DNA from: a virus
Reading direction: 5' to 3' (one strand)
IMG/VR virus record: IMGVR_UViG_3300033993_001401
Location: 1 to 37,413 of that record
DNA: 37,413 nucleotides
Shown here: one piece after another, positions 98 to 32,512 of the stretch
Numbering within the stretch: the stretch's first letter is position 1
Layout: each line of letters starts with the position of its first letter
Translations under genes and position numbers: made by a program
Notes under the pieces: model-generated
Databases searched by the model: none
What the model saw: the letters and a program-made list of their open reading frames with translations, nothing else
Told to the model about the DNA's origin: nothing

Positions 98-928
98 CTA
101 AATTAAACCATTATCTTGCATGTATTTCAATCGCGCTGGATGAATACCGCTTTTTGTTTTTTCATCTATTTCAAAACTTTTTGTTTGACCGCCGTTACTT
201 TGTTTTTCGAAATTATATTCAGCTGCAATAATTTCAAATAACGTTTCGTACTTTAGGTTTTCCGTTGGCTTAGATGGATGCTTTACGCGGTTACCATCTT
301 TGTTAACCCATATGTTAGAATCGCCATCAATTTCAAAATCAAAACCGCGTTCACGAATTTCAGCTTCTAAAATGGCCCTCATTTCTTTAGGCGCTAAACG
401 TGCATTTTTTACAGATTCAACTAATGATCCGCGGACCTTATCTATTTGCTGATTTTTAATGTAGCTTTGAAATTTACCTTGTTCTTCTTTAATAGCTTGT
501 TGCATTAGCATTTCTTTTTCATTTAGCTTTGCATTTGCTAATTCAAGTTGTTGCGTTAGCTGTTGAAGTTTTTGAGCATCAGCAGATGTGTATTCTTGCT
601 TTAGCTTTTCCAACGTTTCTAATTGGCTATTCTTTAAATCAGAAACAATAGTTTTAAACCTATCTTTTTTGTCTATTCCTTCATATTTTTTTAGGTCAAT
701 AGCAAAAGCATCAGCAATTTGCTTTTCTGTTTTTGCGTATGCAGCGCCAAATAATTCAGCGCTTTTAGCTTCTTCAATCTGTTTGCCTAAACGTTCCTGT
801 ACAGTACGTTCAAGTTTAGATACATAACCTGTTACGGCATCGTCAATGTTAATTTCGTTGTTTTCAATTTTGCTTAGTGTTTCATTATCGAAACCAAGCT
901 TTTCTACTACTGATTTTAAGAATTCCAT
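98..928 (-). CDS. putative scaffolding-like phage head protein (276 aa)
   Basis: The protein is highly charged and helical, with a long coiled-coil stretch rich in K, E, Q and L from about residue 90 to 170. Its C-terminal part holds the short motif KSGIHPARLKYMQ. This size and composition are typical of phage scaffolding proteins, which guide capsid assembly and then leave the procapsid. It follows the Mu F-like and endolysin genes and ends just before a terminator, where a capsid gene often follows; that gene would lie outside the window. It starts at ATG with only 13 bases between it and the upstream gene. The role is inferred from composition and place; another coiled-coil structural protein is possible. 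Confidence 0.55.
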   Translation of the reverse strand: MEFLKSVVEKLGFDNETLSKIENNEINIDDAVTGYVSKLERTVQERLGKQIEEAKSAELFGAAYAKTEKQIADAFAIDLKKYEGIDKKDRFKTIVSDLKNSQLETLEKLKQEYTSADAQKLQQLTQQLELANAKLNEKEMLMQQAIKEEQGKFQSYIKNQQIDKVRGSLVESVKNARLAPKEMRAILEAEIRERGFDFEIDGDSNIWVNKDGNRVKHPSKPTENLKYETLFEIIAAEYNFEKQSNGGQTKSFEIDEKTKSGIHPARLKYMQDNGLI

Positions 929-4798: not shown

Positions 4799-5674
4799 CT
4801 ATGGTGTAATTGTAATTACAAGTGAACCAGTTACGCCCGAAGCATCATTAGCTGTAGCAATTACAGTAACAGTACCCGGTGCAGTAGCAGTAAGCAAACC
4901 ACCACTGCTAATAGTTGCCGTACCTGTGCCGTTAACAACCGACCAAGTAACAGTAGCATCAGTAGCGTTTACAGGTAATACAGCTGCAAGCATTTGCAAT
5001 GTAGAACCATCAGCAACAGTTGTTACGTTACCTGTGCCTGTTACAACAATTGAAGTTACCCAACAAACGTTATAAGGTAGTGTTAGCAAGAAGTCTAAAG
5101 ACAATTGGCTAAATGTACCAAGCTGTTCATTGTATCTAAATTCAACGGTCCAGTAAGCATCATCTTCATCAGTTTCAGCAATCTGATAAAAAGGTCTAAC
5201 AGTTACGTTTGAATACCAACCTAAGAATCTACCATCGCAAGTTACAAAACCAAATTCATAACCAGCAGCTTTAGCAGGATTTGATAGGAAATTGTAAAGC
5301 GCATCAATAGTAAATGTAAGATCATTTTCAGCATCAGTTAGTGAAACAACACGCGACTGCTTTACTACCTCCTCCTGACCGCAGCTACCACGCTTTTTAG
5401 TAGTAAATTCAGGTGCAGGCAAACCACCGCTAATACGTGAACCGTTAACGCGGCCAAAAACGTTTTTATCAGCTATTGCAGTTTCCCATTCAGTAGAATC
5501 TGTAATATCGGAAAATTCGTAGTTACATTTTTTTGCAAACCAACCAGCAATACCACCGCTGTATACAGTAGAATCGCACGGGTCACAAAGGTAGTTAGGG
5601 GCGTTATCCTCGTCTATGCAAGGCGGGCAAACACCGAACGCGCCCAAAAACCCATTTATAAAAGAAATATTCAT
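4799..5674 (-). CDS. structural protein with C-terminal Ig-like Big_2 domain (candidate tail tube protein)
   Basis: Residues about 205-291 form a Big_2-type Ig-like domain: V.TG...T.VADGSTLQ..A...P.NATDATVTWSV...TAT...GLLTA..PGTVTVIA. The first 200 residues are beta-rich with several cysteines (CPPC, CDPC) and are not recognised. A tail tube domain followed by an Ig-like domain is known from lambda gpV and related proteins, where the Ig domain decorates the tail surface and may touch cells or glycans. Here the gene lies between tail genes and the portal, so a major tail protein is the best guess, but another virion protein is possible. Confidence 0.6.
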   Translation of the reverse strand: MNISFINGFLGAFGVCPPCIDEDNAPNYLCDPCDSTVYSGGIAGWFAKKCNYEFSDITDSTEWETAIADKNVFGRVNGSRISGGLPAPEFTTKKRGSCGQEEVVKQSRVVSLTDAENDLTFTIDALYNFLSNPAKAAGYEFGFVTCDGRFLGWYSNVTVRPFYQIAETDEDDAYWTVEFRYNEQLGTFSQLSLDFLLTLPYNVCWVTSIVVTGTGNVTTVADGSTLQMLAAVLPVNATDATVTWSVVNGTGTATISSGGLLTATAPGTVTVIATANDASGVTGSLVITITP

Positions 5675-30919: not shown

Positions 30920-31141
30920 ATGAAACAGACAGCAGTAGAATGGTTAAAACAGAATCTTCCATCACTTTTTTTAGAAGATTCTAAACATTATGCGGAATTA
31001 TTTGAACAAGCTAAAGAAATGGAAAAGCAGCAGATAATTGATGCTTATTTACAAAAAAGAAGGCTATCTAATATATCTAAATCTATGAAATTATGTGTAG
31101 ATGCAGAAACTTACTACAATGAAACCTACAAAAAACCTTAA
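30920..31141 (+). CDS. conserved-type phage protein, MKQTAVEWL family (73 aa)
   Basis: Proteins that start with KQTAVEWL and contain E.FEQAKEMEKQQIIDAY are very common in phages and bacteria of the Bacteroidota, function unknown. It is helical and acidic. I chose ATG at 30920 over a TTG 18 bases upstream. Its end overlaps the next gene. Confidence 0.65.
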   Translation: MKQTAVEWLKQNLPSLFLEDSKHYAELFEQAKEMEKQQIIDAYLQKRRLSNISKSMKLCVDAETYYNETYKKP

Positions 31142-31313
31142 CATCACATTAGAAGATTATGACAGCACCTGCGGGGATGGGTGCTGTCATGATTTTGGCA
31201 CAATAACAACGGTAAACGGCGTTGAACTTGAATGTCATAATACAGATACTGAAACAATTGTAAGGCAGATTTTGGAGCATTTAGGGTATAATGTAACTAT
31301 TGAATATAAATGA
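31119..31313 (+). CDS. hypothetical protein with CGDGCC motif (64 aa)
   Basis: It has the motif STCGDGCCHDFGTITTVNGV and ends QILEHLGYNVTIEYK, a pattern I know from short phage proteins without function. The three cysteines may bind metal. Its stop codon (TGA) lies within the first bases of repeat copy 1 (31310). I chose the ATG at 31119; 31101 is an alternative. Confidence 0.6.
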   Translation: MKPTKNLNITLEDYDSTCGDGCCHDFGTITTVNGVELECHNTDTETIVRQILEHLGYNVTIEYK

Positions 31314-31394
31314 TACTTGGTTTTGGTAGTTCCAGAATAGGCAGGCCGCTAAACAAAAACTTATCTGACAGCTGGAAAGACAGCATTTTTTAAC
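31310..31394 (+). repeat. 85-bp direct repeat, copy 1
   Basis: This copy is almost the same as 31731-31815; I count three or four differences, including a one-base indel near AGAATAGG/AGAAGGG. It contains TTCCAG and CTGGAA that can pair, GCTG...CAGC near the end and a T6 tract. In copy 1 the ATG opens a 27-codon frame (MILGFGSSRIG...DSIF); in copy 2 the indel brings in a stop after 13 codons. Confidence 0.85.
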
Positions 31395-31463
31395 GGACGA
31401 TTATTTGCGTTCGGTGGGGCGTTACACCACCAAAGTTAATTTGAAACAATAAATTTTAAAAAT

Positions 31464-31715
31464 ATGCAGAAAGATAATTTGAAAAACGAAACCCCCACTG
31501 ACGCAAATAATGTGTTAGTGGCTGGCGTTCCTTTGGTTGATGGCGAATACTACCGTATCAATGAAACAAAGAAGATTTTATATTGGGATGGCTCAAAATG
31601 GATGAAGCCTGTTAAAGACCACCAAAAAAGATATGGCACTTGGAATGGTCATTTAAATAAACAACCAACCAATATAAAATCGGTTGAGTTGGTTAATATT
31701 CACGCTTGCCACTAA
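31464..31715 (+). CDS. hypothetical protein between the two 85-bp repeats (83 aa)
   Basis: Not recognised. The protein has VLVAGVPLVDGEYYRINETK and ILYWDGSKWMKPV, which looks like a small beta domain with a WDGSKW motif, common in fibre- or surface-related proteins. It lies in the 336-bp segment bounded by the repeats. A GGTGG/CCACC hairpin lies upstream (31414-31431). The gene could be cargo carried with the repeats, but this is a guess. Confidence 0.55.
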   Translation: MQKDNLKNETPTDANNVLVAGVPLVDGEYYRINETKKILYWDGSKWMKPVKDHQKRYGTWNGHLNKQPTNIKSVELVNIHACH

Positions 31716-31730
31716 CATAAATGTTTGCGA

Positions 31731-31815
31731 ATGATACTTGGTTTTGGTAGTTCCAGAAGGGCAGGCCGCTGAACAAAAACTTATCTGACAGCTGGAAAGA
31801 CAGCATTTTTTTAAC
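31731..31815 (+). repeat. 85-bp direct repeat, copy 2
   Basis: The second copy ends 10 bases before the start of the PD-(D/E)XK nuclease gene and has T7 at its end instead of T6. Both copies lie directly after a gene, on the same strand and in the same orientation. As an RNA each could form a terminator-like end. Confidence 0.85.
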
Positions 31816-31825
31816 TTAAATATTT

Positions 31826-32311
31826 ATGATTGTAATTGATATAAATCAAAATCAAATAGATAGAGCAAAAGAATTATATACTTTTGTAAATTTAAATGGT
31901 TCAATAATGAATGGCCAAAGTAATATATATGGTGCTTTAGGTGAAATTATAATTTATGATTTTTATAAATTAAAAGGTTTTGATATTGATAACAATAGCA
32001 CTTTTGATTATGATTTAATTATTGATAATTATAAAATTGATGTTAAAACAAAAAAAACTAAAGTTATCCCTATGGAACATTTTTTATGTAGTATTTCAGA
32101 TTTTAATATAAAACAAAAATGTGATTTTTATTTTTTTGTTAGAGTTCTTGAAAATTATGAAAAATGTTTTTTATTAGGTTATAAAAAAAAGAAAGAATTT
32201 TTCAAATATGCAAAATATAATAAAAAAGGAACAAAAGATGTTAACGGATTTATATTTAAAGATAATTGTTGGAATTTAGAAATTAAAAAATTAGATAAAT
32301 TTAAAATATAA
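31826..32311 (+). CDS. PD-(D/E)XK-type nuclease (161 aa), very AT-rich
   Basis: The sequence GALGE (E40), then FDYDLIIDNYKIDVKTKK (D63, D72, K74) fits the D-x-D/E-x-K core of restriction-type nucleases. The gene is richer in A and T than its neighbours and is rich in K, N, F and I, which may point to a different source. It stands just after the second 85-bp repeat. It could be a homing-type or defence nuclease; no DNA-recognition domain is visible. Confidence 0.65.
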   Translation: MIVIDINQNQIDRAKELYTFVNLNGSIMNGQSNIYGALGEIIIYDFYKLKGFDIDNNSTFDYDLIIDNYKIDVKTKKTKVIPMEHFLCSISDFNIKQKCDFYFFVRVLENYEKCFLLGYKKKKEFFKYAKYNKKGTKDVNGFIFKDNCWNLEIKKLDKFKI

Positions 32312-32317
32312 CACACC

Positions 32318-32512
32318 ATGACAGAACTAACTATCGACATGGCAAAAGATATGCCTTTTATAGATTGTGTAAAACATTTTAAACCTGAATGGTCTGACGA
32401 TCAGTGTGATTTTTATTTATGGGAACATACCTATTTCCCTTTTTCAACTAAAGAAATTATAATAAAACAACTCAATGAGCAACTTAGGGTTTTAAATACA
32501 ATTAAAATATGA
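32318..32512 (+). CDS. hypothetical small protein (64 aa)
   Basis: Not recognised; acidic at the N-terminus and rich in aromatic residues (FKPEWSDDQCDFYLWEHTYF). It overlaps the ATG of the next gene (ATGA), indicating a shared message. Confidence 0.55.
   Translation: MTELTIDMAKDMPFIDCVKHFKPEWSDDQCDFYLWEHTYFPFSTKEIIIKQLNEQLRVLNTIKI

Follow-up and report, generated by a model that had tools for sequence, protein, structure and literature searches.

The repeated sequence in the window, by which we mean the whole 37,413-nucleotide stretch of viral DNA analyzed here (IMG/VR record IMGVR_UViG_3300033993_001401), consists of two copies of one 74-nt intergenic, non-coding element, named E. Neighboring genes are exchanged at E between related phages, and its 3' end is a covarying hairpin that functions as RNA of this strand. 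This hairpin is a member of a widespread class that is, so far, apparently unnamed and undescribed. Our overall reading, to which we give about even weight, is that E is a non-coding junction element whose invariant 3' hairpin, of this widespread phage class, would serve as a cis-acting transcript-boundary signal, and that the window gained a gene cassette by recombination between E copies.

Results

Two copies of one element

The two copies (31309-31393 and 31730-31813) are identical in 81 of 85 aligned columns, or about 95%; their pairwise alignment contains one 1-nt gap and three substitutions. They lie in direct orientation at a spacing of 420 nt, and a T-tract follows the hairpin in both. 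The earlier note, which had described two near-identical elements with a T-tract here, was correct in this respect, as it was in its observation that a one-base indel breaks a reading frame: copy 1 contains a 27-aa open reading frame (ORF), and the indel disrupts that frame in copy 2. The window holds no third copy; the 18-nt 3' core occurs exactly twice, and nothing further appeared with up to three mismatches allowed, the count in shuffled sequences also being 0. The features of the locus, all on the + strand, are as follows.

30920..31141, + strand: gene g2, which anchors the locus on the left in most relatives
31101..31313, + strand: gene g8, left neighbor; its stop codon and the first bases of E copy 1 overlap
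31311..31384, + strand: element E copy 1, 74 nt, from ATACTTGG... to the hairpin end; the T-tract continues to 31391
31366..31384, + strand: 3' RNA hairpin of copy 1, UGACA GCUG GAAAGA CAGC
31391..31518, + strand: attC-like module TAAC...GTTAG with inverted arms ATTATTTGCGT / ACGCAAATAAT, 128 bp; abuts E copy 1
31464..31715, + strand: 83-aa ORF between the copies; about 22 N-terminal residues come from the module end, and residues 27-83 match stand-alone small proteins
31732..31804, + strand: element E copy 2, 73 nt, 1 base shorter
31786..31804, + strand: 3' RNA hairpin of copy 2
31826..32311, + strand: 161-aa ORF that may encode a nuclease; begins 10 bases past copy 2 and is among several cargos seen beside E
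32318..32512, + strand: gene g3, the corresponding anchor on the right in most relatives

What is conserved in E

A pattern scan of IMG/VR for the 5' part of E returned 36 stretches, 30 of which are family members. All but one of these (29/30) have the same 3' end. The family alignment comprises 23 rows, namely the two window copies and 21 loci, with exact duplicates and the exceptional locus L363 excluded; mean column identity across these rows is 84%. A peptide reading of copy 1 was rejected: several relatives lack the ATG and relatives carry 1- to 2-nt indels, so that no peptide is kept in E. With the open frame lost in relatives and the 3' hairpin covarying (see below), the proposal that RNA structure rather than peptide is maintained holds. 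The specific pairing suggested at the time, TTCCAG with CTGGAA, does not, as TTCCAG is altered in 3 of the 23 rows (L008, L066, and L075) while CTGGAA is invariant. CTGGAA is instead part of the 3' hairpin, which has a 4-bp stem and a GARAGA loop.

RNAalifold found no compensatory pairs within the 23 rows, 5' part included, and the folding energy of E was no better than that of shuffled sequences. Since the hairpin is invariant within the window family, the covariation evidence comes from other families. At the same locus, the hairpin of L039 and L059 lacks the 5' part and sits directly after the stop codon of a g2-like gene, and L010, L043, and L064 carry a different sequence upstream of it. 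Hence, the hairpin is constant, while the 5' module of E may be present or absent. On the reverse strand of L363 (~5471-5540), the 5' part of E leads into another hairpin, GACTG-AGAA-CAGTC, and then a short T-tract; judging by this locus, the 3' hairpin seems exchangeable.

Gene exchange at E

The usual order in relatives is g2 - hairpin - (cargo) - g3 - ... - g1, where g1 is a glucosaminidase. When 500 nt on each side of E were clustered, the left flanks fell into types U1-U6 and the right flanks into D1-D10. Across E, U1 is joined to D1, D2, D3, D4, D5, and D10, U2 to D1, D2, D3, D4, D6, and D9, and U3 to D1, D2, and D7. Such near-free combination of left and right flanks implies repeated crossovers at or beside E, making E a junction for homologous recombination. 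The link to gene mobility that had been suspected holds. The earlier note had also proposed looking for a relative that has a single copy and lacks the 83-aa gene. L067 is such a relative: it reads g8-[E]-nuclease-g3, and the window reads g8-[E]-83 aa-[E]-nuclease-g3.

The 95% identity, direct orientation, and 420-nt spacing of the window copies would also suit a recent tandem duplication of one E. However, the two copies differ from each other at 3 sites, whereas copy 1 differs from the allele of L087 at only 1 site and copy 2 likewise from those of L004 and L074; moreover, L036 shares the left flank of copy 2. With closer counterparts in other phages than in one another, the two copies speak against recent tandem duplication, which we consider quite improbable. 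Cassette exchange between phages fits better, and the gene between the repeats seems to have been swapped in.

The bracketed gene is itself composite. The first 22 residues of the 83-aa ORF are also found at the N-termini of unrelated proteins: the module provides unrelated downstream ORFs with a start codon and some 22 residues. There are 39 distinct module copies in viral contigs, that of the window included; the frame is open through the core into the next ORF in all of them, and the left arm is missing in 12. Integron attC sites have R-box, spacer, and L-box inverted repeats that close a loop of variable sequence and are common to unrelated cassettes; their consensus is RYYYAAC/GTTRRRY. 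The module fits this consensus only partly, with TAAC/GTTA and the arms ATTATTTGCGT/ACGCAAATAAT present, and by its architecture alone it may be called integron attC-like. Integrons and attC clusters (CALINs) are described in phage genomes (PMC9892861). Here, the ORF between the E copies begins in an inverted-repeat module, TAAC...GTTAG, that may be comparable, with various ORFs after it in 38 further copies. The likeness would concern the bracketed cassette, not E, and the window module differs in supplying a start codon and about 22 residues.

The 161-aa ORF on the other side of copy 2 starts at 31826, 10 bases past 31815, as had been claimed. Its description as a PD-(D/E)XK nuclease is unconfirmed. 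By eye it contains D..DVK, which may be a PD-(D/E)XK-type motif. Searches of Pfam, PHROGs, and PDB sequences gave no match and NCBIfam no meaningful one; PADLOC gave a single weak match to REase_II (E 0.0056), and the AlphaFold model is unusable (pLDDT 36). Having copy 2 only 10 bases before this ORF, and a small gene bracketed, could suggest that the E copies are the ends of a nuclease-driven mobile unit. Of the 23 non-redundant records, however, only three have the nuclease gene (g19) beside E (the window, L067, and L086), with other cargo or none in the remainder, and the idea of a nuclease-linked unit is scarcely credible.

A widespread covarying hairpin

The 3' end was also searched for without the 5' part of E. 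The version requiring a following TTTT yielded 87 stretches and the T-free version at least 120; copies outside the window, which the earlier note had suggested looking for, do exist. Clustering of the collected loci by upstream similarity, with matches near locus ends excluded, gave 144 context clusters, nearly all of them phage. A similar 23-base pattern (the T-free version left out) had 6 matches, 4 of them able to pair, among 257 Gb of contigs from bacteria and archaea.

The consensus is UGACA-GCN-G-GARAGA-C-N'GC (19 nt; 4-bp stem). The N-N' pair is standard in 74 of the 77 clusters from the T-free scan, against 40.8 expected from base frequencies (p 3e-17). It is CG in 41 clusters, TA in 15, GT in 8, AT in 7, TG in 2, and GC in 1, and the remaining three are unpaired. 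In the opposite-strand RNA, pairing would fall to 66/77, and given these G-U pairs the hairpin acts as RNA of this strand. With the stem fixed and the loop left free, GAAAGA (28) and GAGAGA (21) were the commonest loops and the next had 6 (at least 105 distinct matches); together the two make up 49 of the 105 distinct matches listed. Covariation and loop preference thus indicate that the RNA hairpin UGACA-GCN-G-GARAGA-C-N'GC is selected. Rfam 15 had no match above the gathering score in the window, its matches in 34 other loci all lie off the hairpin, and string searches of the literature for the hairpin gave no match.

Among named carriers are Flavobacterium phage FL-1, Pseudomonas phage Itty13 (with a GAGAGA loop), and Xanthomonas phage FoX1. 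Nineteen Streptococcus phage records match around the hairpin, that of SMP having one change, and near-matching hairpins are found in Stenotrophomonas phiSHP3, Morganella IME1369_02, and Acinetobacter SH-Ab 15599. Exactly one copy is present in 26 of 30 virus records, these being chosen records with at least one copy each that may be fragments.

The earlier note had thought of a terminator cassette, and in the window family the hairpin is indeed followed by an A and a T-tract. An intrinsic terminator is nevertheless very improbable. The stem has only 4 bp, most relatives lack a U-tract (TTTT within 9 nt in 1/77 and at least 4 T in 8/77 T-free-scan clusters), E folds no more stably than shuffles do, and termination would leave the conserved loop and the 5' UGACA unexplained.

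Context of the hairpin

The hairpin sits between transcript units (tRNA/tRNA or gene/gene). A tRNA lies within 500 nt on the same strand in 33/144 clusters and on the opposite strand in 0/144; the hairpin is 29-76 nt after the tRNA in 15 of 23 cases and 3-9 nt before it in 8 of 16. The tRNA T-arm motif GTTCGA occurs within 100 nt upstream in 24/144 clusters against 2.3 expected (~10x). There is also a modest excess of start codons 20-45 nt downstream (44/144 clusters, compared with 19.6% of random positions). The hairpin is not always upstream of a feature on its own strand, the next gene being convergent in FoX1 and Vibrio phage 1.123.O. The tRNA spacing would be best accounted for if RNA ends were protected or processed at the junction.

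Possibly, a small stable RNA of ~47-94 nt, distinct from the flanking transcripts and acting in trans, ends with the hairpin; its 5' domain would evolve fast, and phage tRNAs would be its neighbors. Such an RNA could be accommodated by the spacing in tRNA arrays and would end 3-9 nt before the next tRNA; most records have one copy, and E itself measures 74 nt. Yet in L046 and L059 the upstream gene uses the TGA of the hairpin as its stop codon, and in L039 the stop codon lies 2 nt before it, which leaves no room for a separate 5' domain. Furthermore, the 144 clusters share no upstream sequence other than tRNA T-arms and no common 5' domain or P1 stem, and additional structure just upstream is weak (mean z -0.49). 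A trans-acting RNA fits the tRNA arrays, not the hairpin-only mRNA cases, and we regard it as unlikely, if the most serious of the alternatives.

Antitermination of the nut/put type would keep RNA polymerase going through leaders and tRNA arrays. The lambda boxB is a short hairpin with a purine loop; the GARAGA hairpin occupies an early-operon leader position in L106 and precedes the holin in Morganella phage IME1369_02, and tRNA arrays are untranslated. Against this, boxA GCTCTTTA (at most one mismatch) is present in 6 of 144 upstream stretches, not enriched over the 3.5 expected, HK022 has no GARAGA hairpin, put regions included, and there is usually one copy per record. Such a role appears improbable. 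The leader of L106 had no match in E. coli genomes.

Sigma70 -10 and TAnnTTTG promoter strings were not enriched around the hairpins, though other promoter types of the host may differ, nor were hammerhead-type core strings enriched near them. Mimicry of 23S rRNA was considered and rejected. GGAAAGAC is part of the 23S stretch 2054-2068 as given in PMC12887398, but the GAGAGA loops break the identity and chance is the likely explanation.

Several loci deserve mention in their own right. The ssRNA phage Gerhypos.3_22 (L353) has a hairpin with one mismatch at 401-419, 8 nt from the 3' end of the record (E 8); a follow-up search found no other ssRNA phage with the hairpin, and this one may be chance. 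Rfam places a Type I hammerhead ribozyme at 8364-8319 (-) of L122, ~40 nt upstream of the GARAGA hairpin at 8278-8261 (-), and Proteo-phage-1 RNA at 356-435 (+) of L137, ~95 nt upstream of the hairpin at 530-547 (+). In L015, 4500-3500 (-) is a tRNA array with oddly long tRNA-like genes and four GARAGA hairpins between or after them. Long spans without annotated protein genes surround the hairpin in Acinetobacter phage SH-Ab 15599 (L360, 779-1931), with tRNAs, and in Vibrio phage 1.123.O (L356, 1298-1726), with inverted repeats; possibly, these are larger structured RNAs.

Discussion

The earlier interpretation of this repeat is thus partly supported. RNA structure, copies elsewhere, and the link to mobility stand, whereas the exact pairing, the terminator, and the nuclease unit do not. 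We favor a cis-acting signal at transcript boundaries, with the hairpin protecting, processing, or sustaining the transcript across the junction and a conserved bacterial factor presumably reading the GARAGA loop. The window may have acquired the attC-like module, the 83-aa ORF, and the second E together, as related phages recombined between their homologous E copies. The window pair would then be the scar of that event and could permit the cassette to be lost again.

The promoter-early stem-loop elements (PeSL) are mobile regulatory cassettes of T4-type phages. By analogy, both PeSL and E may be seen as short intergenic stem-loop elements at variable junctions that provide homology for the swapping of neighboring genes, and E, too, has varying left and right neighbor genes from one relative to another. 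Unlike PeSL, which contain an early promoter, the hairpins have no promoter motif nearby (neither -10 nor TAnnTTTG strings are enriched), and the hairpin has a conserved sequence of its own and crosses phage lineages of several host phyla. The small stable RNAs rnaC and rnaD of T4 are likewise small RNAs within a phage tRNA cluster; identity with these was rejected, as neither carries the GARAGA hairpin. Lambda boxB and HK022 put RNA are, similarly, short phage hairpins acting on their own transcript; in contrast to these, the GARAGA hairpin has no boxA and another loop, and it is lacking from HK022. The DUF2815 RNA of Rfam (RF03084) is also a hairpin shortly before the start codon of a phage gene, but its sequence and loop are unrelated.

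Rather more tentatively than for the junction itself, and with somewhat less than even confidence, we suggest that the GARAGA hairpin represents a phage RNA signal of a new class, typically with one copy per genome, common to phages of Bacteroidota, Bacillota, and Pseudomonadota and nearly absent from bacterial genomes. At the boundaries of tRNAs and of mRNAs, it might be read by a conserved part of the host, for instance RNA polymerase, the ribosome, or the RNA-processing machinery.

In summary, the repeat is more interesting than a terminator cassette, since it exposes both an apparently undescribed hairpin class and modular gene exchange. The window offers a clean example of genes exchanged at a non-coding homologous junction, including the apparent capture of an integron-like cassette. 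The occurrence of a 19-nt hairpin with a fixed loop in unrelated phages, both in tRNA arrays and between mRNAs, suggests a common handling of transcripts, possibly via one conserved host factor.
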